From Gemmatimonadota bacterium (GTDB taxonomy: Bacteria; 4572-55; J002), in NCBI GenBank assembly GCA_003697105.1, contig RFFQ01000052.1, forward strand, positions 1 to 14,267: a DNA stretch of 14,267 nucleotides, given 5' to 3'. Under the pieces are notes generated by a model. That model was given only the letters and a program-made list of their open reading frames with translations, did no database searches and was not told the DNA's origin. The translations under genes were made by a program, and so were the position numbers. Below are positions 3,075 through 14,257 of the stretch, in pieces (position 1 is the first letter of the stretch; each line of letters begins with the position of its first letter).

Positions 3075-4526
3075 TTATTGGCGGAGTGCCTCAAGCCGCT
3101 CTTGTGCGACCATTGCCCACGTTTCCGGCGGTTGGGAGGCGAGGTAATCTTGCCAATATTGCCGTGCTTGGTGGTGCCAGTGACGTTTTTCCGCATAAAC
3201 CGCCAAATTGAAATACGTATCCGCATTCATTCCGGCTTGATTTTCCAATTGATGGAATCGTTGTTCAGCCTGTTCCAGCCGGTCTAGTTCATACAACGCA
3301 ATCGCTAAGGCACTGGTAATATGAATATTCTGGGTTGTAACCACTTCACATAGGTCGATGATCGATTCCCATTGGCGGAGTTCACCGAACAAGCTGATCG
3401 CATACAATCGCGTATCGAGGTCTTGGGGGTGGTGTTTTAAATACGTTTTAAATTGATTACCTAAGGCGGTTAATGCCAGTCGTGCGTCCATATTGGGTTG
3501 GTTTCGTTCTGCTGGCGGCAGCATATACGGGAATTTCCAATCCACAAACTCCATATTTTTTTGAAGGGTCTGAAATTGGTGGATCAGAGCGGGTGCGCTT
3601 AAAACCATTCCGTTGGCGGTTGGGGGAGCCACTGCCGAGACGGTTTGGCGGGGGGCAACCGTTCCGGCAAAGGAGTGAGTTAGAGGCGGCGGCGCGGGAG
3701 CAGAACGTTGTAAATCCGACAACATCGAGGCGCCACCGGAAGATTCAGTGGAATACGGCGTGACCTTAGAATATCCCTCATCCGGGGCTTGATCCACCTC
3801 GGCGAGGGGCTGATCTCTCAATAGATAGTCATCAATTGTTTTTTCTGGAGCAATACCCGCCGGGATATTCTTCTCATCCGTTTCCGATGAGGTTTCTGCC
3901 GGCTCATCCGGCAGGTCTTCTGCAATGGGTTCCGGCAAGGGGGAAGGCAAGATCGTCTCCGGTTGGGGGGTTGTCACATCGTTTCTTTTTGTTTCTGCCA
4001 ACACCGGTTTTGTAGGGGTTTCCTCAGGAGAAGCCTCATCCATCAAGATTTCCGGCAAGTTAGCGTCTTCCGCCGGTTCTTCGCGTAACTCTGTAGGAAT
4101 GGCGCTGAAGCCCCGCCCCGAATGTTGTTCTTCCACAACCGGCTCCGGTGGGGGTTGCTGGTTATAAAGCAGAATACCGGTCACCAAAACAAAAATAGCC
4201 GCCATAGTTCCGATCCAGCGGGGGGTACGTACCGTATTTTTTAGCCACATCAGCATTGTAAATTGACGAGCAGAAGCGCCGCTTGCCGCAAGGCGGGAAG
4301 GTGCGGTGGTCGCCTCCGACAACCGGTCTTCGTGGAGGATCACCAACATTTCCCGGCAGTAGGCACACTCTGCTAAATGCTCTTCCAGCAAATCCAGTTC
4401 TGCGGGAATCAAACGATTTTCCAAAAATCCGTTCAGTAAATTGGCATCGCATGTTTCTACCGAATTATGTGTCAAATCGGGTGGAAATGTGGTTAATAAG
4501 TAGCGAATTAAGGCGCTATTTTTCAT
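3075..4526 (-). CDS. Membrane anti-sigma factor: zinc finger, TM helix, Pro/Glu-rich stalk, TPR-like tail
   Basis: A 483-residue protein in four parts. Residues 20-65 form a zf-HC2-type anti-sigma zinc finger (C26, then H50-x3-C54-x2-C57), the part that in known members sequesters an ECF sigma factor in the cytoplasm. Residues about 104-121 are a single membrane helix. Residues about 125-340 are a Pro/Glu/Thr-rich stalk, predicted periplasmic. Residues about 360-483 are helical TPR-like repeats (for example ADTYFNLAVYAEKRHW), a plausible sensor or docking surface. It follows the sigma gene by 104 nt, typical of a cognate pair. The ribosome binding site is weak, but the start gives a complete N-terminal domain. 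A signal could be transmitted by proteolysis of the stalk or membrane segment (inference). Confidence 0.85.
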   Translation of the reverse strand: MKNSALIRYLLTTFPPDLTHNSVETCDANLLNGFLENRLIPAELDLLEEHLAECAYCREMLVILHEDRLSEATTAPSRLAASGASARQFTMLMWLKNTVRTPRWIGTMAAIFVLVTGILLYNQQPPPEPVVEEQHSGRGFSAIPTELREEPAEDANLPEILMDEASPEETPTKPVLAETKRNDVTTPQPETILPSPLPEPIAEDLPDEPAETSSETDEKNIPAGIAPEKTIDDYLLRDQPLAEVDQAPDEGYSKVTPYSTESSGGASMLSDLQRSAPAPPPLTHSFAGTVAPRQTVSAVAPPTANGMVLSAPALIHQFQTLQKNMEFVDWKFPYMLPPAERNQPNMDARLALTALGNQFKTYLKHHPQDLDTRLYAISLFGELRQWESIIDLCEVVTTQNIHITSALAIALYELDRLEQAEQRFHQLENQAGMNADTYFNLAVYAEKRHWHHQARQYWQDYLASQPPETWAMVAQERLEALRQ

Positions 4527-4630
4527 GGGGCATCCGGTTTGGTTTTGATCTCAAAAAATTCAGTTTTGTTCATGACGGGAAATATCACATATCATGCACC
4601 ATTTCTTCACAAAATTTCCGAGGGGAGGGG

Positions 4631-5608
4631 TCAATCCGCTCGGATGGTACCTTTCAAGTTTAAGTCTAAATCCTTCATAACAAGGGAAAAATACTCAAAT
4701 GTTTCTTCCTTGCTGAGTCCGAATGTACCCAACATTTCACGCTCAATGGCGGTGCGTAGTTTCTGCCGAATCTTTGCCAACCAGCGGCTGGCAGTGGATT
4801 CGTGCACATGGTACATCTCGCCGATGGTTTTTTCTTTTAAGCCTTTGAAATAGTAATAATCGACAAGGTTTTTTTCTTTAGCATTCAATTGTTGAAAGGC
4901 TTTGGGCACAACTGCGCGGAAGATTTCCCGGTATTTTTTTTGTTGGTACTGTTCTTCGGGCGATCCGGTCTGTTCATCAGCAAGACGACTTTCCAAATTG
5001 GGTGGATGGTCATCATCATCCCCTTCAACGGGCGAAAAGGGGACTTCATTAGCACGTGATAATTGGCGATGCCGATCAACAACTTTCCGATAGACGATAA
5101 TCCGTAGCCACCCTTTGAGGGAACCTAACCCATTATAAGAGGCGATCTTAGAACTGGAATCATCCGCCTCAGAAACCGGTATATACAGGTCTGCCAAGAG
5201 AGAATCCGCCAAATCATGAGCTTTTTCCGAATTTTTTAGATATTTCAGCGCCACCTGATAGATAAACGGCTGGTACTCTTGCTGAAAGATTCCCCATGCC
5301 GCATTATCGCCTTGCGCACAGGCGGTTGCCAGAAATAAATCGTCCAAAACTAGAGATTCCAATAAGTCCAGCGGGGTGGCATGTTCTCCGGGCGGGAGTG
5401 TCGAAAATCGTTTGGCGATAATTTGGGCAACGACACGGGCAAAATCGGTCGTGGAGAGGCGAATTTGTTCCCAGCGACTGCGGCAATCTTCAGTAAGGGT
5501 CTGGAGGCGGTGGAGGTGCGCTTCGATGAATGCCTGAAGGGCGTCCGGGTCTCCTCGCAAACAGCTAGCCGCCCATTGGGCATTGAACGGCATCGATTCG
5601 CTTTTCAT
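4631..5608 (-). CDS. ECF-type sigma-70 family RNA polymerase sigma factor with N-terminal extension
   Basis: Directs RNA polymerase to a dedicated promoter set. Region 2 spans about residues 93-182 (core-binding and -10 helices, ending KGWLRIIVYRKVVDRHR). An acidic linker follows (EGDDDDHPPN). Region 4 covers about 237-290, with a helix-turn-helix (EKTIGEMYHVHESTASRWLAKI) for the -35. About 90 extra residues precede region 2, longer than in ordinary ECF factors, plus some 35 after region 4. I chose ATG 5606-5608, which overlaps the upstream stop as ATGA and has GGAAGG at proper distance; an ATG at 5624-5626 lacks one. The partner anti-sigma gene follows directly. Probably autoregulated, as is common in the family, but no target motif can be proven here. 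Confidence 0.88.
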   Translation of the reverse strand: MKSESMPFNAQWAASCLRGDPDALQAFIEAHLHRLQTLTEDCRSRWEQIRLSTTDFARVVAQIIAKRFSTLPPGEHATPLDLLESLVLDDLFLATACAQGDNAAWGIFQQEYQPFIYQVALKYLKNSEKAHDLADSLLADLYIPVSEADDSSSKIASYNGLGSLKGWLRIIVYRKVVDRHRQLSRANEVPFSPVEGDDDDHPPNLESRLADEQTGSPEEQYQQKKYREIFRAVVPKAFQQLNAKEKNLVDYYYFKGLKEKTIGEMYHVHESTASRWLAKIRQKLRTAIEREMLGTFGLSKEETFEYFSLVMKDLDLNLKGTIRAD

Positions 5609-6096
5609 GGTGTTGAACCTTCCCATTGTACGTCACGCAGAATAATCTCGTAACGATAAATATACTGGGGTTGGGTATTTTCCGTAGTAAATTCAAGCCG
5701 GCGGGTCGTATTACCGGGCAGGTCTTCAGTGACCAGAATCCCTTCAAAGTCATCCCCATTATCATCATACAATCGGGCAATCATTTCAAGACGTTTCACC
5801 GTACGAGAATCATAATTGATGACATCCAAGGTGACAACTGTTTTTTTCTGATCGCGGGTCTGCAAAGAGGAAATCACGTGGACGGCAATTTGGTCTTGTG
5901 TTTCACCAACAGCTAAGATGCGATGCTCCTCCTGATAGAGCAAGTTGACATAAAAAAAGGCCCCGATTAACAACACAAGTAAAATTAACGCGGAAATAAC
6001 CTGCAACCATTTGCGATCCGGTACCAGGGACTGTCCGCAATTGGAGCAGACCTGCCTTTTCTCCGGTTGTCGTGTTCCACAATGGGGACAATACAT
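5605..6096 (-). CDS. Membrane protein with N-terminal zinc ribbon
   Basis: A 163-residue protein. Residues 3-20 hold a zinc ribbon (CPHC at 3-6, CSNC at 17-20), followed by a basic stretch, a membrane helix (about 29-53) and a roughly 110-residue extracytoplasmic domain rich in beta-type sequence (KKTVVTLDVINYD, RLEFTTENTQ). I use ATG 6094-6096 because it has AAGGA upstream and because a strong promoter lies at 6149-6177, inside the longer open frame that runs to 6183. The stop overlaps the sigma-factor start by four bases, so it is the first gene of the zinc-ribbon/sigma/anti-sigma operon and may tune the system. The family is not one I can name; zinc-ribbon membrane proteins are diverse. 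Confidence 0.8.
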   Translation of the reverse strand: MYCPHCGTRQPEKRQVCSNCGQSLVPDRKWLQVISALILLVLLIGAFFYVNLLYQEEHRILAVGETQDQIAVHVISSLQTRDQKKTVVTLDVINYDSRTVKRLEMIARLYDDNGDDFEGILVTEDLPGNTTRRLEFTTENTQPQYIYRYEIILRDVQWEGSTP

Positions 6097-6148
6097 CCAA
6101 ACGTCCTTGTAAGATAAGAGAGGGGTGAATGTGGTTGAATTGGGCAAA

Positions 6149-6177
6149 ATGTTAGTGAATCGGGTACAGCTTGTCAA
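6149..6177 (-). promoter_or_regulatory. Near-consensus sigma70 promoter of the zinc-ribbon/sigma/anti-sigma operon
   Basis: TTGACA (6177-6172) is followed after exactly 17 nt by TAACAT (6154-6149) on the minus strand, about 45 nt upstream of the expected transcription start to ATG distance for 6096. It decides the start codon of the zinc-ribbon gene. The spacer contains GTGAAT (plus strand 6155-6160), matching half of the dyad at 6206-6229. Confidence 0.75.
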
Positions 6178-6205
6178 TGCCATTTTGGTTGAATCTATCC
6201 GGCGG

Positions 6206-6339: not shown

Positions 6340-6368
6340 TTGACATCTTAATATGGATTTGGTATCAT
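6340..6368 (+). promoter_or_regulatory. Near-consensus sigma70 promoter of the rightward gene cluster
   Basis: TTGACA (6340-6345), a 17-nt spacer, then TATCAT (6363-6368), followed by an AT-rich start region. The leader to the ATG at 6445 is about 70 nt. It is the only strong rightward promoter I find, and the six following genes are all co-directional with gaps of 7-47 nt, so it may drive the whole cluster. Confidence 0.75.
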
Positions 6369-6444: not shown

Positions 6445-7116
6445 ATGCTTGATAATTTTAGTCTGGAACGGTTGGTACTGATTACCCCACCCATTTTGCT
6501 GGCGTTGACCGTTCATGAATTTGCCCATGCGTGGAGCGCCTATAAATTAGGGGATCCCACCGCCAAAAATGAAGGACGTCTGACCTTAAACCCACTCCAC
6601 CACATGGACCCGATTGGCACGTTCGCTATTTTCATTACCGCGATGGTGGGCTTTGGGATTGGCTGGGCACGACCGGTACCCGTTAATCCGTATAATTTCA
6701 AGCACATGGATCGGGATGATTTGTTAGTCTCCATTGCGGGACCGGCTTCTAATATGTTGCAAGCAATTGTCATGGGGGTTGCCGTTCGTGTATGTCTGTG
6801 GCTGGGATTAGCGGTGAATTCGCCTCTGGTGATGATGCTCTTTGCCGGATTGACAATCAACTTGGCATTGGCGATCTTCAACATGTTACCGATTTTTCCA
6901 TTGGATGGGTCGCATATTCTGCGGGCGTTAGTTCCTTCCCGTTATAAAATTATGTTGGATGAAAGCCGCCGGTATGCACCGTTATTGCTTCTCTTTTTAA
7001 TATTTACACCCATCTTGGGGTACATTATTTCGCCGTTTATCTTCCGCTTCAGCGTGCTGTTTTTAGGATCAGATCAGCTCTTTAGAAGCCTTGCGTACTA
7101 CTTTTACCAGATGTAG
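6445..7116 (+). CDS. Site-2 protease family (M50) intramembrane zinc metalloprotease
   Basis: A 223-residue multi-spanning membrane protein. Zinc ligands and catalytic Glu are in HEFAH (H24, E25, H28) inside the first helix. The third ligand lies in the second M50 motif FNMLPIFPLDGSH (N146, D154-G155). The sequence between (RLTLNPLHHMDPIG, VSIAGPASNM) is typical of the compact, PDZ-less YwhC-like branch. Known relatives cut substrates within membrane helices, but substrates of this branch are poorly known. The start has GGAA about 7 nt upstream. First gene after the rightward promoter and divergent from an operon encoding a single-pass anti-sigma factor, so that protein is an attractive but unproven substrate. 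Confidence 0.92.
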   Translation: MLDNFSLERLVLITPPILLALTVHEFAHAWSAYKLGDPTAKNEGRLTLNPLHHMDPIGTFAIFITAMVGFGIGWARPVPVNPYNFKHMDRDDLLVSIAGPASNMLQAIVMGVAVRVCLWLGLAVNSPLVMMLFAGLTINLALAIFNMLPIFPLDGSHILRALVPSRYKIMLDESRRYAPLLLLFLIFTPILGYIISPFIFRFSVLFLGSDQLFRSLAYYFYQM

Positions 7117-7123
7117 TCTACTG

Positions 7124-8026
7124 ATGCGTCCGTGTTGTCCCGTTATTTTTGTGTTTGGTTTTTTGCTGGTTGGGAGTGGGTGCACCTCATCTCCCTCTTA
7201 TCACCCGCAGAACCATCCCTACCAGCAGTTGTTGCGGGTTCACCCTGAACTTAGCTCGGTGCGGTATCAGTTGGGGTATGACCTCTACCGGCAAGGAAAT
7301 ATGTTGGAGGCAGCAAAAGCGTGGGATGAGGTATTAAAAAGCCACCCGCGTTTTGCCAATGTGTACTGGTTGCGTGGGGTTATTCATCGTAATTTCGGCG
7401 ATCACGCTCAAGCCAAAACTCATTTTCAACAGGCATTAGCCCTGAGTCCTTCCTCCGCGGAAGCCCATCACCAACTCGGTTTGGAATACGCTTTGGAAGG
7501 TAATTTTGCGACAGCTCGCGGCTACTTTGAACGGGCAGTGGAACTCGATCCAGACGCGGCAATATATTGGAACAACCTCGCCATGAATTACGTGCAACTG
7601 AATGACCTCCCCGCGGCGATTCAAGCATATCAAGCGGCACTGAGACATGATCCATACAATACGGACATCCAGTATAATTTAGGCGTTACGTATGTCAGAG
7701 CAAATCAATTTGAACCGGCAAAATTGCAATTTGAATCGATTTTACAAACACACCCGAATCACAAAGCCACATACTTTTCATTGGCATCGGTGCTAGCGGA
7801 ACAAGGACATTATGATCGGGCGATGCAATTGCTGGAGTCAGTTCGCCCTCGATTTAACACCGATCCAGACTTTTACTGGAATCTGGCAATTTTACTTGAA
7901 AAACAGAATCAGTTTGATGATGCCCGTCTCATCTGGCAAAAATATTTGAGTTTGGCTTCAAACAGTGCAGAGCGCCAGCAAGTGGAAACCCACGTGATTA
8001 AATTGGAATCAATTTTAAATGAATAA
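7124..8026 (+). CDS. TPR-repeat lipoprotein
   Basis: A 300-residue protein with a short hydrophobic signal ending GSGC at C20 (slightly atypical lipobox, Gly at -3), followed by TSS and then six to eight tetratricopeptide repeats from about residue 35 to the end (for example SAEAHHQLGLEYALEGNFATA, ending DP or HP turns). Probably a periplasmic-facing lipoprotein; no sorting rule can be applied safely. ATG at 7124 lies 7 nt after the protease stop and has no clear ribosome binding site, so it may rely on coupling. A TTG at 7091, overlapping the protease gene, would add 11 residues. TPR lipoproteins of this size resemble PilF/PilW-type pilotins in layout only. Its place beside an MglA cassette suggests a scaffold role. 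Confidence 0.85.
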   Translation: MRPCCPVIFVFGFLLVGSGCTSSPSYHPQNHPYQQLLRVHPELSSVRYQLGYDLYRQGNMLEAAKAWDEVLKSHPRFANVYWLRGVIHRNFGDHAQAKTHFQQALALSPSSAEAHHQLGLEYALEGNFATARGYFERAVELDPDAAIYWNNLAMNYVQLNDLPAAIQAYQAALRHDPYNTDIQYNLGVTYVRANQFEPAKLQFESILQTHPNHKATYFSLASVLAEQGHYDRAMQLLESVRPRFNTDPDFYWNLAILLEKQNQFDDARLIWQKYLSLASNSAERQQVETHVIKLESILNE

Positions 8027-8062
8027 ATTTTAGATGACACCCGCGGATTGAGGCAGAGTTAG

Positions 8063-9178
8063 ATGATCTCGTTTAATTATGACTTAAAAGAAATTAACAC
8101 CAAAATTGTGTATTATGGTCCGGGGCTTTGTGGAAAAACCACGAATCTTCAATATGTTCATGCAAATATTCCCGAGAATACACGTGAAAAAATGATTTCG
8201 CTGGCGACCAAAACCGACCGAACGCTGTTTTTTGACTTTTTACCCATGAAATTGGGGAATATCGGGGGATATAATACACGATTTCATTTATACACCGTGC
8301 CCGGACAGGTGTTTTACAACTCGACCCGCAAGGTGGTTTTAACCGGCGTGGATGGTATCGTGTTCGTTGCAGATTCACAAGCCCACCGGTTGGAAGCCAA
8401 TATTGAAAGTTTTGAAAATTTGGAAGAAAACCTCCGCGAAAAAGATATTGATATTAAAGATATTCCCCTCGTGTTACAATATAACAAGCGGGATTGTCCC
8501 AATATCCTCTCGGTGGAAAAACTGAACTCGGCACTTAACACCAATAACTACCCCTATTATGAAGCAATTGCGATTACCGGTGCGGGTGTTTTTGAAACCC
8601 TCAAGGGGATTTCGCAACTGATGTTGAACGAGTTCTACAAGCGCGGTAGTTTTGCAAAATTGGGTATTGAACCGCGCCGAAAACCCCGGCGAAAAGATGA
8701 ACGAGACGATACGAATATATGGGAATCGGGCATTGATGATAACTTAATTAAAAGCGTACCACCAAATGAAGCCACCACAAAAACATCAACGATGGTGTCC
8801 GTCCCCGATAACCTGCCCCAGATGAGCGATGATCCGCTGGTTCCAAAACTGGAAGAAGAACCCGCGGCATCACCGGCAACGAGCATCCCCGATTTACCCA
8901 CACTAGATGCTCCCACCGATTTACCGGGACTGGAACCTCCGCAGACAACACCGGCGATGGAACCCGAAACAAACCAATCAACTAAACTCACTACTACTTT
9001 GGATTTGCCAGGCATGAATACACCCAATACCCCATCCGGAACACAACCAAAAACCGAAACACCTGCCCCGACCGTAAAGGAAGTTCGGAAACGGATCAAT
9101 GTGCCCATTAAAATCGCCTTAGATAAACTTCCCCAACGGTTGAAACTTGAGATTACCTTGGATATCGAATTGACTTAA
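8063..9178 (+). CDS. mglA: MglA-family Ras-like GTPase with long C-terminal tail
   Basis: Cytoplasmic polarity switch: in Myxococcus xanthus MglA-GTP marks the leading pole and drives motility machines. Residues 1-195 match MglA closely and even keep its numbering: P-loop GPGLCGKT (19-26), Arg53, switch 2 TVPGQ with Thr78 and Gln82, and NKRD (141-144) for guanine recognition. The family's usual length is about 195; this protein has 371. After a basic patch (RRKPRRKDER) comes a Pro/Thr-rich linker (about 225-335) and a terminal block of some 34 residues (INVPIKIALDKLPQRL, then alternating hydrophobics) that looks folded or peptide-like. GAGG precedes the ATG. The following gene encodes a Roadblock protein, the expected regulator type. 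GTPase identity is firm; the tail's role is unknown. Confidence 0.95.
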   Translation: MISFNYDLKEINTKIVYYGPGLCGKTTNLQYVHANIPENTREKMISLATKTDRTLFFDFLPMKLGNIGGYNTRFHLYTVPGQVFYNSTRKVVLTGVDGIVFVADSQAHRLEANIESFENLEENLREKDIDIKDIPLVLQYNKRDCPNILSVEKLNSALNTNNYPYYEAIAITGAGVFETLKGISQLMLNEFYKRGSFAKLGIEPRRKPRRKDERDDTNIWESGIDDNLIKSVPPNEATTKTSTMVSVPDNLPQMSDDPLVPKLEEEPAASPATSIPDLPTLDAPTDLPGLEPPQTTPAMEPETNQSTKLTTTLDLPGMNTPNTPSGTQPKTETPAPTVKEVRKRINVPIKIALDKLPQRLKLEITLDIELT

Positions 9179-9194
9179 CATTAAGGTGGTCGGA

Positions 9195-10322
9195 ATGAAC
9201 ACAGAAGGTATGCTTCAAGAAACACCGCTTCAGGAAATCCTTCAAACGATTAGTTTGAATCGTAGTAGTGGTAAGCTCTACTTAAAAAGTGATGTCGGGC
9301 ACGGACAAATCATGTTTCGGCAGGGAAAAATCGTGGGTGCACAATCCTCTTTGGAGAGTTTAAGACTCGGCGATATTTTGATTTTGCAAGGGTGGCTTAA
9401 CACCCCCCAACTAGAAGAAGCCCTAACCCTACAAAAAGAAACCGACGAACATCATCTCATCGGTGAAATTTTACAGCAACACAATTGGGTAACCGCGGAT
9501 AACATTGAATACGCCTTGAAACTTCAAGTCCAGTATGTGTTTTTTAACCTGCTTCGGTGGAATGTAGGGACATATACCTTTTATGAAGGTGCTGTACCAG
9601 ACACAACACCGGTAAAATTTTTAGTTGAGGAACTCTTGATGGAGGGTATGCGGCGGCTCGAAGATGACGATGACAACGATATCGAGGTCATTACGGTGAA
9701 TGAATTGGAAATTGTGGATGCGGAAAGTCCGGCAGAAGAGGTCACCCCACCGGAAAACTTAAACACCCCCACCCCACCTACTTACGAAGATATTGTGATT
9801 TCAGACCCGCAACCCACCCCAACAGAAACCGCCCCATCAAATACCCTGTCGGGCATTGCGGCGAAACATCGCCTTCATTTCCTAGAAATGCTACAACAAC
9901 GGTTAGGAAATCGTTATCTGGAAGAAATTCAGTCCATAGAAGTGAAAGACGACCAATCCATCCGGGATATTTTGGATATTTTTCGGAAGGACCCGCGGGT
10001 CAAAATCGCGGCATTAGTCGCCAAAGATGGTCTGTTCTATGGAACCAGTACCAACGCCCGTGAAAATGTGTATGCCGTTGGCGCCATGGCATCCAATACG
10101 TGGGGCATGATTCTCTCCTTTGGTGAAGAATTACTCAATCATAAGCAATTAACCTCCGTTTATTTTCATTTTGAAGAAGATGTGGTGCTACTGCAACTCA
10201 TCTCCGATAACATCGCACTGTTAATTGTGGGGGAGTTGGGTATCGATCTGGAATTTATCTCCTGTACATTACTTGCCTATCAAGATCATCTATTAAATCT
10301 GCTTGAAACTCAACATATTTAG
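9195..10322 (+). CDS. DUF4388-Roadblock/LC7 fusion protein (MglB-like)
   Basis: A 375-residue cytoplasmic protein. Residues about 5-140 form a DUF4388/PatA-N-like module (LQEILQTISLNRSSGKLYL, then GDILILQGWLNTPQLEEAL and FFNLLRWNVGTYTFYEG). An acidic and Pro/Thr-rich linker follows (EDDDDNDIE near 156, then PTPPTYEDI). The C-terminal 110 residues from about 266 (DPRVKIAALVAKDGLFYG, later SVYFHFEEDVVLLQL) are a Roadblock/LC7 domain, the fold of MglB, which acts as GTPase-activating partner of MglA. I chose ATG 9195-9197 because AAGGTGG is placed correctly before it; GTG 9186 lies within that site. It starts 16 nt after the MglA stop. Regulation of the adjacent GTPase is inferred from fold and neighbourhood. 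Confidence 0.88.
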   Translation: MNTEGMLQETPLQEILQTISLNRSSGKLYLKSDVGHGQIMFRQGKIVGAQSSLESLRLGDILILQGWLNTPQLEEALTLQKETDEHHLIGEILQQHNWVTADNIEYALKLQVQYVFFNLLRWNVGTYTFYEGAVPDTTPVKFLVEELLMEGMRRLEDDDDNDIEVITVNELEIVDAESPAEEVTPPENLNTPTPPTYEDIVISDPQPTPTETAPSNTLSGIAAKHRLHFLEMLQQRLGNRYLEEIQSIEVKDDQSIRDILDIFRKDPRVKIAALVAKDGLFYGTSTNARENVYAVGAMASNTWGMILSFGEELLNHKQLTSVYFHFEEDVVLLQLISDNIALLIVGELGIDLEFISCTLLAYQDHLLNLLETQHI

Positions 10323-10352
10323 CCATCATCTTAATCTTTAAGGAAACCGTCC

Positions 10353-11696
10353 ATGGACATAGTAGAGCTACTTTTTTCCGAAGAAGGGATTGTCAATACT
10401 GTCTTAATTTTGGCAATGGTATTGACGTTTCTCTTATTGATTTGGGTCAACATTGAACGGCGGAAAAAAGAAGAATTTGAGCTTGAGATCGAAGAAAAAG
10501 AGCATGAAGTCGAACAAATCCGAGGACAAGTCCATCTGGAACAAGCAAACTTGTTAAAAGAAGAATATGAGCAAAAGATTCAAAATATTGATGCCAAATA
10601 CCGGCACAAAATCGAAGAACTGATCCGGAAAGAACAACAGCTCCGAGATGAAAGCGAACAGCGTATCCGGGCATTGGAAGCAGAAAAACAGTCCCTGATT
10701 CGAAAACATCAGCACGAAATCATCGAAAAAGAGCATGAATATACAACCCAAATCGCAGAATTGCGGCAAAAGATTGTCGAACTCCAAGCGGAAGGCACCA
10801 ATACCGCTCCCTCACAGGCATCCTCTGAAATGTTGGTAGAGTTGCAAGCCCTCGCAGAAAAACGGCTGGAAGATGAACGGCGGTTGCTTCAGGTCAAAGA
10901 ACGACAATTGGAAGTTGCCCACGAACGTATCGTGGAAAACTCACCTATTTTATCCAAGTTGAGCACCCTCGAAGGAATGATTCAACAGCTCTCTACCAGC
11001 TTATTTGCCTCCTCCATGGCCAACGGACACCAACTCGTGCTCAGTAAAACCCATACCGATATTTTAAAACAAGCCTTCACAGAGGCACAAACGGAAATCA
11101 TACTATTTTGCTCCAAAATGACCCGCCACGGCTTAGCACAAATTACCCCCCTGTTGGAAGAATGCCTGCGGCGGGGAGTTCAAATTGATTTGGTGATCGG
11201 TACCTCCTATTTCTTAAATGAGTCGCGGCTACACCTACCGGACTTGATCCAACTATTGGAAATCGCCGAACAATACGAAAATTTACAAATTCGTTCCCGT
11301 TACGAGATTGATCAAGAGGTGTTGATCTGCGATGAGAACTGGTCTGTCCTCACCTCCGCCCATTGGCTGGGTGATCCCCAAGAAGAGGACTTAGGGGTTC
11401 AACTCTCCGGTACCGCCTCAACATTGAAACTCAAAGAAACGGTTTTGAAACATATCCAACAAGCCGATTTTCTGCATTTGAAAACCGATAGAATTAAAGC
11501 CGTCGGTAAACGAAATAATGAAATTCTAATTAAATTAATCGATTTCAAGCGTGCTTTGCGCTTAAATTCGCGCTTTATTGAGCAAATTATTCAAGAACTC
11601 CAAACGCTTCGGGAACAAAACGCGCCCGTTCAATTTGTCATCTCGGAGCACGACGGCAAAGATGTGACCTACGTAGGTCATCGCCCGACTGGATAA
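10353..11696 (+). CDS. Membrane-anchored coiled-coil protein with degenerate phospholipase D-like domain
   Basis: A 447-residue protein. A short N-terminal end leads into one membrane helix (about 12-29). Then comes a long, highly charged coiled coil (about 32-200; Glu/Lys/Gln/Arg-rich heptads). From about 230 to 375 is a phospholipase-D-like fold (TEIILFCSKM, LLEECLRRGVQIDLVIG, ENWSVLTSAHWLGDP). The HxKxxxxD signature is replaced by DQEVLICD (320-327), so His and Lys are lost and catalysis is unlikely. A helical C-terminus with a basic segment follows (RIKAVGKRNN). AAGGA precedes the ATG. The coiled coil is probably cytoplasmic, placing the PLD-like domain where it could meet the MglA/Roadblock pair encoded just upstream. 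Name and partner are unknown; a structural scaffold is my preferred reading. Confidence 0.75.
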   Translation: MDIVELLFSEEGIVNTVLILAMVLTFLLLIWVNIERRKKEEFELEIEEKEHEVEQIRGQVHLEQANLLKEEYEQKIQNIDAKYRHKIEELIRKEQQLRDESEQRIRALEAEKQSLIRKHQHEIIEKEHEYTTQIAELRQKIVELQAEGTNTAPSQASSEMLVELQALAEKRLEDERRLLQVKERQLEVAHERIVENSPILSKLSTLEGMIQQLSTSLFASSMANGHQLVLSKTHTDILKQAFTEAQTEIILFCSKMTRHGLAQITPLLEECLRRGVQIDLVIGTSYFLNESRLHLPDLIQLLEIAEQYENLQIRSRYEIDQEVLICDENWSVLTSAHWLGDPQEEDLGVQLSGTASTLKLKETVLKHIQQADFLHLKTDRIKAVGKRNNEILIKLIDFKRALRLNSRFIEQIIQELQTLREQNAPVQFVISEHDGKDVTYVGHRPTG

Positions 11697-11743
11697 ACGC
11701 GTATTATGCTTTTTTGGAAACCAAATGAAATGAGGGTCTCGTC

Positions 11744-14257
11744 ATGAAGAACCAATTTACCGCAATTCATGCCTTGCTTTTCTGTGGGCTAATCGTGCTC
11801 GGTAAAATCACCCCTGCAATAAACGCCGAGGCAAATACACGGCTGGAACAATACCGCCAGCAAGTACAAGAGCTCCCGCAAAGCCCTACCGCCAATCTTC
11901 AATTGGCGTTGGTCTATGATGAACAGCACCAGATCGACGCCGCTATTCAGCAATACCAGCGCGTATTGGAACTTGACCCCGACCAAGTCATTGCTCACGT
12001 CAACCTCGCGTCTTTATATATCAAAAAGCACCGGTATGAACGCGCCTTGCGTCATTACGAACGCGCTATCGAACTCGACCGGAACAACGGAGTTGCTCTA
12101 GCCGGACTCGGCTTTCTTTACTTTCGTAGCCAGATGTACCCTCAAGCCATTGAGTACTACCAACGGGCGATGGAACTCCGCCCCAATGATGCCAACATTG
12201 CCTACAACTTAGGATTATTGTATGACGAACAAGGAGAATGGGATTCCGCTATCGAATATTACCGGCGCGCTTTGGCAATCGATCCCAATTATGCGGATGC
12301 CCATTATAATCTAGCGGCAATTTTTGCCGAGCAAAAACAAAATTCAACCCAATCACGCGCAGAACTCGAAAAGATGATTGCCATTGTCCCGGGAGATGTT
12401 TCTGCTCATATCCGCTTAGCCCAACTCTACGAAGCTGAAAATGAGAATACCAAAGCACTGGAACAATACCAAATTGCCAGCCAAATCGATACGGATAACC
12501 TGAACTTACTCTTGACGGTGGGTCGTCTGGCAGAACGTTTGAAAGAAGCCGCCGTAGCAGAAGATGCCTACCTGCGCGTGCTCGATCTGCACCCCGATCA
12601 TGCAGAAGCAAATGCGGCACTCGCCCGGATTTACGCCCAAGAAGGATATTATGATGAAGCCATCCGAGCCATGGAAAAGGCAAATGCCTTAGGTAAACCG
12701 GTTGCCGGAAGTGCCAATATTTATCTGCAGCACGGCATTAAAGCGATCAACGAAAATCAGTTTGATGTCGCGGAAATCCAACTCAAAAAGGCGATCAATT
12801 CCGATAATCCTCCCGTGGAAGCGTTTTTCCTGCTAGCGCAGCTTAAATTGCAAAACCGGCAAGATCAAGATGCAAAACCCTTGTTAGAGAAAGTGGTCAC
12901 CCTCGACCCACAACATGTAGATGCCCATTATCTGCTGGGGTATATCAATGAAAAAGAGGCACGCCAACTGGAAAAAGCCGGTCAGGTTGCCCAAGCGGAT
13001 GCCAAATATGAAGCCGCAATTCAAAAATATAAAACCGTGATCGAGCTGGATAAAAATTCCGCCAAAGCACACTACAATTTAGGTACACTTTATGTTCAAA
13101 AAGGGAATAAAGCGTATAGCGCGGCAGAAAAAAGCCTGAGTTCGCAGGTAGAACGTCAAAAATATCTGGAAACGGGTCACCGCTGGTACGACCAAGCAAT
13201 AAACCACTTTGAGCGGGCGGTGGTATTAGACCCGCAAAACGTGAGTGCTCACTTTTCATTGGCAAAGATTTATCAGGTGCGGTCAGAAGACCTCTCGCGG
13301 AGTGAGCAATTCCGTAATCAGATGCGGGCCGCCGCCTTTGATGAATATCGCCAAGTGGTGATGTACGACCCGCGCAATGCTATCGCCAGCTCACGAGTCG
13401 GGTTATATTATGCCCAACAGCAGGAATTTGCCACAGCACATGAATATTTTGACCGCACCTTTGCGTTAGGTCCCGCTTCCGCCGAAATTTATGCCGATTA
13501 CGCCCAAGCCCTCTATCTGGAAGGTAAATATTCCCAAGCACAGCAAAATATTGATGAAGCCCGCCGACAAGACCCGCAAGACGCCCGGGTGCGAGCAATT
13601 GCCGGAGATATTTACCGGGCACGCGGGCAACTGGAATTGGCACGAAGCGAATACCGGCAAGCGGTTCAATACAAACCCGCAAACAAAGAATACCGCTATA
13701 AATATGCCCGTCTGTTGGAAGAGATGAAGTTGTACAGCCAAGCCATTGCCCAATATGACACCACCTTAATGTACCATCCCGAAAATATTGAGGCAAAACA
13801 ACGAATTGCCTATTTGCGACAACGCGAAGCCGAAGAAAAAGAACAGAATCGTGAACTCGCCCGGCAAGAATATTTGGATATTCTCAACCATGACCCCAAT
13901 AACCTTACTGCCTTAATCAATTTAGGGGGTCTGGCAGCGCAAGACGGTGACTTTTTTAAAGCCCAACGTTATTTTGAGCGTGCCAAAGATAGCCACCCCA
14001 ACAGTTATTTGGCACATTTTAATCTAGGATTGATCTTCGATTTACAAGAACAACCCACCAAAGCGGTTTACCATTACAAACGCTGTTTAGCACTCCATCC
14101 CGGATTTGCAAAGGCTCACTACTACTTAGCCCAAATCTATCAAAATGAAGGACAGATGGAAGAAGCCACCCGCCATTACTGGGAAGCTAGCCAACTCGAC
14201 CACGACAATTTAGATGCCCGCGCCCGGTTGGATGCCCTTCGGGCAGAAGGGTATTGA
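11744..14257 (+). CDS. Large secreted TPR solenoid protein
   Basis: An 837-residue protein with a signal peptide (hydrophobic core about 8-20, likely cut after AINA at residue 28), then tetratricopeptide repeats over nearly its entire length, at least fifteen by eye. Early repeats are near the consensus (IAYNLGLLYDEQGEWDSAI, YYRRALAIDPNYADAHYNLA); the middle has longer helices between repeats (about 405-500), and the C-terminal repeats regain consensus. No enzymatic domain is visible. GAGGG precedes the ATG. Last gene of the cluster in the window, 47 nt after its neighbour. Predicted periplasmic, possibly outer-membrane associated. The repeats offer a long binding surface for cell-wall or envelope partners (inference). 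The ORF closes inside the window with TGA. Confidence 0.88.
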   Translation: MKNQFTAIHALLFCGLIVLGKITPAINAEANTRLEQYRQQVQELPQSPTANLQLALVYDEQHQIDAAIQQYQRVLELDPDQVIAHVNLASLYIKKHRYERALRHYERAIELDRNNGVALAGLGFLYFRSQMYPQAIEYYQRAMELRPNDANIAYNLGLLYDEQGEWDSAIEYYRRALAIDPNYADAHYNLAAIFAEQKQNSTQSRAELEKMIAIVPGDVSAHIRLAQLYEAENENTKALEQYQIASQIDTDNLNLLLTVGRLAERLKEAAVAEDAYLRVLDLHPDHAEANAALARIYAQEGYYDEAIRAMEKANALGKPVAGSANIYLQHGIKAINENQFDVAEIQLKKAINSDNPPVEAFFLLAQLKLQNRQDQDAKPLLEKVVTLDPQHVDAHYLLGYINEKEARQLEKAGQVAQADAKYEAAIQKYKTVIELDKNSAKAHYNLGTLYVQKGNKAYSAAEKSLSSQVERQKYLETGHRWYDQAINHFERAVVLDPQNVSAHFSLAKIYQVRSEDLSRSEQFRNQMRAAAFDEYRQVVMYDPRNAIASSRVGLYYAQQQEFATAHEYFDRTFALGPASAEIYADYAQALYLEGKYSQAQQNIDEARRQDPQDARVRAIAGDIYRARGQLELARSEYRQAVQYKPANKEYRYKYARLLEEMKLYSQAIAQYDTTLMYHPENIEAKQRIAYLRQREAEEKEQNRELARQEYLDILNHDPNNLTALINLGGLAAQDGDFFKAQRYFERAKDSHPNSYLAHFNLGLIFDLQEQPTKAVYHYKRCLALHPGFAKAHYYLAQIYQNEGQMEEATRHYWEASQLDHDNLDARARLDALRAEGY

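Follow-up and report, generated by a model that had tools for sequence, protein, structure and literature searches.

Group 1 MglA GTPases are defined by an Arg residue beside the G2 Thr together with the sequence TVPGQ (Wuichet and Sogaard-Andersen 2014, PMC4316618). The same paper describes MglA-PATAN and MglB-PATAN gene neighbourhoods; as cited there, the MglA-PATAN link is also found in Makarova et al. 2006. In Synechocystis, PATAN response regulators bind PilB (PMC10519157, PMC9090330), and in M. xanthus the recruitment of PilB by MglA is mediated by SgmX, a TPR protein (PMC11580455).

The locus considered here fills much of a 14,267-nt stretch of DNA (the window), and the likelier account of its core is a switch formed by two proteins, a Group 1 MglA and its likely PATAN-Roadblock regulator, with the product of gene 6 as a probable third component. 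The Group 1 catalytic motifs and the adjacent gene for a putative Roadblock partner recall the MglA/MglB systems of M. xanthus and T. thermophilus. Here, however, the Roadblock domain is fused to PATAN, the MglA carries about 180 aa of linker and tail, and the genome encodes a separate canonical mglB-mglA pair (contig C54). As in the published MglA-PATAN neighbourhoods (PMC4316618), genes for MglA and Roadblock adjoin one for PATAN, but PATAN and Roadblock form one protein in the window. PilB clusters in three genomes (G010, G158, and G297) contain the same parts, long-tailed MglA, PATAN, TPR, and Roadblock, whereas the window's pair lacks adjoining pilus motor genes. The MglA-SgmX couple of M. 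xanthus type IVa pili offers a further likeness, MglA with a TPR protein as possible effector; yet the target of SgmX, PilB, is cytoplasmic, and the two TPR proteins of the window carry export signals.

The probable six-gene operon

The features of the locus are as follows.

6340-6368, plus strand: sigma-70-like promoter, TTGACA-17-TATCAT, with extended -10 TG; 11/12 matches
6445-7116, plus strand: gene 1, site-2 protease M50; HEFAH and NxxPxFPLDG
7124-8026, plus strand: gene 2 (P0002), TPR protein with lipoprotein-like N-terminal signal; atypical lipobox GSGC
8063-9178, plus strand: gene 3 (P0003), Group 1 MglA GTPase with long linker and tail
9186-10322, plus strand: gene 4 (P0004), DUF4388/PATAN-Roadblock/LC7 fusion
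10353-11696, plus strand: gene 5 (P0005), TM helix, coiled coil, and C-terminal alpha/beta domain
11744-14257, plus strand: gene 6 (P0006), TPR solenoid with N-terminal signal peptide
14231-14255, plus strand: weak terminator-like hairpin within the end of gene 6 (a stronger hairpin lies beyond the window on contig C20)

The first-pass annotation described six genes on one strand, 7-47 nt apart, behind one strong promoter. ORF coordinates confirm the arrangement (gaps of 7, 36, 7, 30, and 47 nt), and the near-consensus site at 6340-6368 bears out the promoter. This site ranks best of 14 promoter-like sites in the region, the total of which is no higher than in shuffles. The gene 2 reading frame is open from a TTG at 7091; its start is most likely the ATG at 7124, since this yields the 7-nt gap and places the signal/lipoprotein peptide first. 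Because of their tight spacing, the six genes presumably share one transcript.

The window is the entire contig C119, and its last 99 nt, including the end of gene 6, match the start of contig C20 exactly. There, a terminator hairpin with a T run lies directly 3' of gene 6 (L193:124-157; fold z -3.9), followed by genes for a dCache-HAMP-PAS histidine kinase and then MurJ. Because this strong terminator comes right after gene 6, the operon probably ends with that gene, and the six-gene unit is probably complete.

A Group 1 MglA with a long tail

That gene 3 encodes an MglA GTPase holds up well. P0003 matches the solved M. xanthus MglA chains with an E value of 4e-79 (PDB sequence search), and is up to 65% identical to other MglAs. 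Residues R53-T54 supply the Arg beside the G2 Thr; TVPGQ lies at 78-82 in G3, with both T78 and Q82 present; and NKRD at 141-144 fits the G4 motif N/TKxD. By its motifs, P0003 is a Group 1 MglA.

The GTPase spans residues 1-190 and is followed by a Pro/Thr-rich linker and a conserved C-terminal tail (341-371; window 9083-9175). Linker and tail make up about 180 residues and set P0003 apart from the MglAs of about 195 residues. The tail is recognisable in the orthologue from G001, the second genome of the phylum (VRKRINVPIKIALDKLPQRLKLEITLDIEL in P0003, VRKAIDLPLQIREIPRQIQLNLTLNIKL in G001). The genome that contains the window encodes five further MglA homologues; the one on contig C54 adjoins canonical mglB and lies near a PilB/GspE-like ATPase gene. 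Because C54 encodes the canonical pair, the window's MglA is a paralogue with a partner of its own.

Extended MglAs at L042, L036, L037, and L038 have in common with the window's (9083-9175) a low-complexity linker and a beta-strand-like C-terminal tail, which could be a docking element. At two other loci (L174:8839-10188 and L175:9248-10465) a SurA_N-like domain is fused to the C-terminus of MglA; those clusters hold genes for PATAN, Roadblock, and TPR proteins.

A PATAN-Roadblock fusion as likely partner

The DUF4388 domain of P0004 scores 92.4 bits (cut-off 25), and the PATAN domain contains an MshE-type helical insertion at 60-114. The Roadblock half (residues ~263-348) scores 17.6 bits for Robl_LC7, below the Pfam cut-off of 23; the G001 orthologue, 32% identical to P0004, reaches 31.2 bits. 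The Roadblock regulator proposed from a first reading thus probably lies beside MglA, on the strength of the G001 score, but as a fusion to DUF4388/PATAN and below cut-off in P0004 itself. P0004 is likely the cognate partner or regulator of MglA.

An alignment of P0004 and its G001 orthologue was used to search 386 genomes. Among the matches listed, the Roadblock part is matched only in the window's genome (G000) and G001; the remaining matches cover the PATAN part only. The first-pass annotation knew of no described system with exactly this composition. The MglA-PATAN link is already in the literature (PMC4316618), whereas the PATAN-Roadblock fusion, found only in G000 and G001 among the matches listed, does stand apart.

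The PATAN insertion carries a possible signal input. P0004 scores 43.7 for an NCBIfam c-di-GMP motif (cut-off 38), and of nine PATAN proteins examined that are linked to MglA, six score above the cut-off for this MshE-related motif in the helical insertion. The six lie at the following positions.

L042, 6976-8004
L051, 5942-7111
L170, 7704-8435
L173, 5263-6444
L176, 9680-10870
L052, 11190-12344

MshEN receptors of c-di-GMP are recognised by a pair of 24-residue motifs in tandem that contain R, G, and Q. The first motif of P0004, RLGDILILQGWLNTPQLEEALTLQ, agrees with the published MshEN consensus except at one position; the second, LIGEILQQHNWVTADNIEYALKLQ, lacks the Arg and the Gly. Because one of the two halves is degenerate, c-di-GMP input through the insertion is rated as no more than possible.

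Conservation of the pair

Two genomes, G000 and G001, represent this rare phylum among the 386 searched overall. On contig C33 of G001 the orthologues of MglA and PATAN-Roadblock are adjacent and in the same order, downstream of nusA and infB. They are the only two of the six genes kept side by side there, and the six-gene order is not conserved.

The MglA-PATAN association extends beyond the phylum. Among the matches listed, 63 of the 386 genomes have both. The two lie no more than 6 kb apart in 16 of these 63 (about 0.9 expected) and no more than 3 kb apart in 11 (about 0.5 expected), where the expectation, like the counts, is for matches listed and assumes random positions and average genome size, and ignores kinship of genomes. 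The clusters contain MglB/Roadblock genes and genes for TPR or TPR-Roadblock proteins, some of them in between. Clusters in G010, G158, and G297 run straight into pilB, and those of G158 and G297 also include pilT and pilC.

Several such neighbourhoods merit description. At L051, L173, and L176, genes for PATAN, TPR-Roadblock, long MglA, and Roadblock proteins lie directly 5' of pilB (two also have pilT and pilC); this PATAN/Roadblock/MglA/pilB cluster is a candidate pilus-control operon common to three distant genomes. G335, and perhaps also G228, encodes beside PATAN, MglB, and MglA a TPR protein whose N-terminus carries a hydrophobic signal. A second neighbourhood type, with two PATAN genes and a large TPR protein, occurs at L171, L172, L178, L179, and L180; judged from N-terminal sequence only, L179 and L180 also encode CheD-like and DnaA-like proteins.

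A secreted TPR protein near the pair

Domain search identifies P0006 as a TPR protein, and it has an N-terminal signal peptide. The label "giant secreted TPR solenoid" is therefore right as to TPR and export, and overstated as to size (837 aa). Its best match in G001 is a 643-aa secreted TPR protein whose gene adjoins the MglA pair on the opposite strand. The reverse search covered TPR proteins from the window and from 17 sampled regions elsewhere in its genome; P0006 came first at 180.9 bits, with the next protein at 118.4. P0006 nevertheless has a paralogue within its genome that scores higher (209 bits) than the G001 protein does (164), and the opposite strand of the G001 gene likewise counts against orthology. 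Reciprocity is suggestive of orthology and falls short of proof, because TPR proteins close to the consensus tend to match one another. The gene 6 product is probably a third component, in loose association with the MglA pair.

Genes 1, 2, and 5

The intramembrane protease was correctly identified: the gene 1 protein scores 46.8 bits as a site-2 protease M50 (cut-off 27.2). Its supposed retention with MglA is contradicted, and by the very kind of result the first-pass annotation had named as counting against its model. Of 60 genomes, 55 have the family, with neighbours that differ from one to the next, and in G001 the homologue lies on contig C47, apart from MglA on C33. On these distributions, the protease is probably not functionally tied to MglA.

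P0002 was rightly called a TPR lipoprotein, in that domain search confirms TPR and the N-terminal signal is lipoprotein-like, with GSGC as an atypical lipobox. Searches returned generic TPR matches only, with no demonstrable orthologue. The protein falls below the NCBIfam cut-offs for PilW/Tgl pilotins (TIGR02521, 106 of 154 bits; Tgl, 61 of 225 bits).

P0005 has a single N-terminal TM helix followed by a helix or coiled coil of about 200 residues. No full-length homologue was found in the 386 genomes, including G001. (Weak matches in G005, G303, and contig C169 of G000 are confined to the TM/coiled-coil part and were dismissed as low-complexity similarity.) Pfam gave no match even at E=10, the PDB sequence search none either, and the phospholipase D motif HxKxxxxD is absent. 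PLD and TrmB chains are among the best Foldseek PDB matches to an AF2 model built without homologues (pLDDT 57; 41 for the C-terminal domain alone). Neither model is good enough to establish a PLD fold; the C-terminal alpha/beta domain is possibly PLD-like and non-catalytic. Of the "membrane-tethered pseudo-PLD coiled coil", then, the tether and the coiled coil stand, and the PLD identity comes down to these low-confidence structural matches.

Models for MglA function

The preferred reading, the two-protein switch, would work as follows. The Roadblock half of P0004 would bind MglA-GTP as MglB does, acting as GAP or co-regulator. The PATAN half would dock this complex; the target would most likely be a pilus motor of the PilB type or some other polar factor, and the GTP state of MglA would set where that target is active. 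P0003 and P0004 would thereby serve polarity. The gene 6 solenoid would be an envelope partner beyond the inner membrane. Genes 1, 2, and 5 are probably co-transcribed, lineage-specific neighbours rather than parts of the switch. The pair, probably together with gene 6, would then be a variant of a known, widespread polarity/pilus control module, and genes 1, 2, and 5 appear to have been added locally rather than to form a new machine across the envelope. Counting against this reading are the sub-threshold Roadblock score of P0004, a sample of two genomes for the phylum, and the lack in both of any pilus gene close to the MglA-PATAN-Roadblock pair.

An output different from that of known MglA systems had been proposed because the 14 kb contain no pilus genes. 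This argument does not hold. Outside the window, the genome encodes PilM, PilT-family ATPases (at least four score over cut-off), and additional ATPases of PilB/GspE type, as well as the canonical mglB-mglA pair. Because type IV pilus genes lie elsewhere, their absence from the window is uninformative about output.

The operon might instead be one of convenience: genes 1, 2, and 6 would act in protein quality control or in homeostasis of the envelope, and the MglA pair would share no more than their transcript. A stand-alone, near-universal protease, the many TPR proteins encoded in the genome, and the unconserved gene order all fit such an arrangement, which we nonetheless regard as unlikely given the tight spacing of the genes and the fact that the G001 gene adjoining the pair is reciprocally best matched with gene 6. 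MglA might also signal in something other than polarity, for example with c-di-GMP, sensed through the MshE-type insertion, directed to exopolysaccharide or secretion. The motif scores and the near fit of RLGDILILQGWLNTPQLEEALTLQ speak for this, the degenerate second motif against it, and it appears rather improbable.

Equally improbable is an envelope machine in which cytoplasmic MglA and PATAN-Roadblock are joined through gene 5 as membrane link to the gene 2 and gene 6 products as periplasmic scaffolds, with the protease as regulator. All these parts probably belong to one operon, bounded by a promoter 5' of gene 1 and a terminator 3' of gene 6, P0005 does have its TM helix, and a secreted TPR protein lies near the pair in G001 too. 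However, no full-length homologue of the gene 5 protein turned up in the 386 genomes, the protease is unlinked to MglA, and the gene 2 lipoprotein has no demonstrable orthologue. Moreover, if the coiled coil is cytoplasmic, P0005 need not touch the exported TPR proteins, because the short N-terminus before its TM helix leaves almost no periplasmic part. An MglA search of contigs found 21 loci, none of them near homologues of the gene 5 coiled coil or the gene 1 protease. Conservation with MglA in the one relative, G001, extends to the PATAN-Roadblock partner and probably to the secreted TPR protein, and not to the protease or gene 5. The envelope-spanning module of the first-pass annotation keeps its MglA-Roadblock pair, its probable single transcript, and the secreted TPR protein, and loses its unlinked protease and orphan gene 5. 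Still more doubtful is a phylum-specific MglA system in which PATAN-Roadblock couples the GTPase to the membrane coiled coil and the exported TPR proteins, so that an assembly neither Agl/Glt nor pilus reads its state across the membrane.

The fused PATAN-Roadblock partner and the long-tailed MglA extend the known MglA-PATAN link. Genes for MglA, Roadblock, PATAN, and TPR proteins travel together across many distant genomes, in some beside pilus motor genes. It is now a testable question whether, beyond the cyanobacteria, MglA complexes are brought to motors of the PilB type by PATAN domains.

Neighbouring genes

A divergent unit occupies the minus strand of the window at 3075-6183. It encodes a zinc-ribbon TM protein; an ECF-like sigma factor that resembles TIGR03001 but scores below its cut-off; and a TM protein that resembles an anti-sigma factor, its N-terminus being zf-HC2-like. 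Further along lies a gene for lipoyl synthase (1551-2474).
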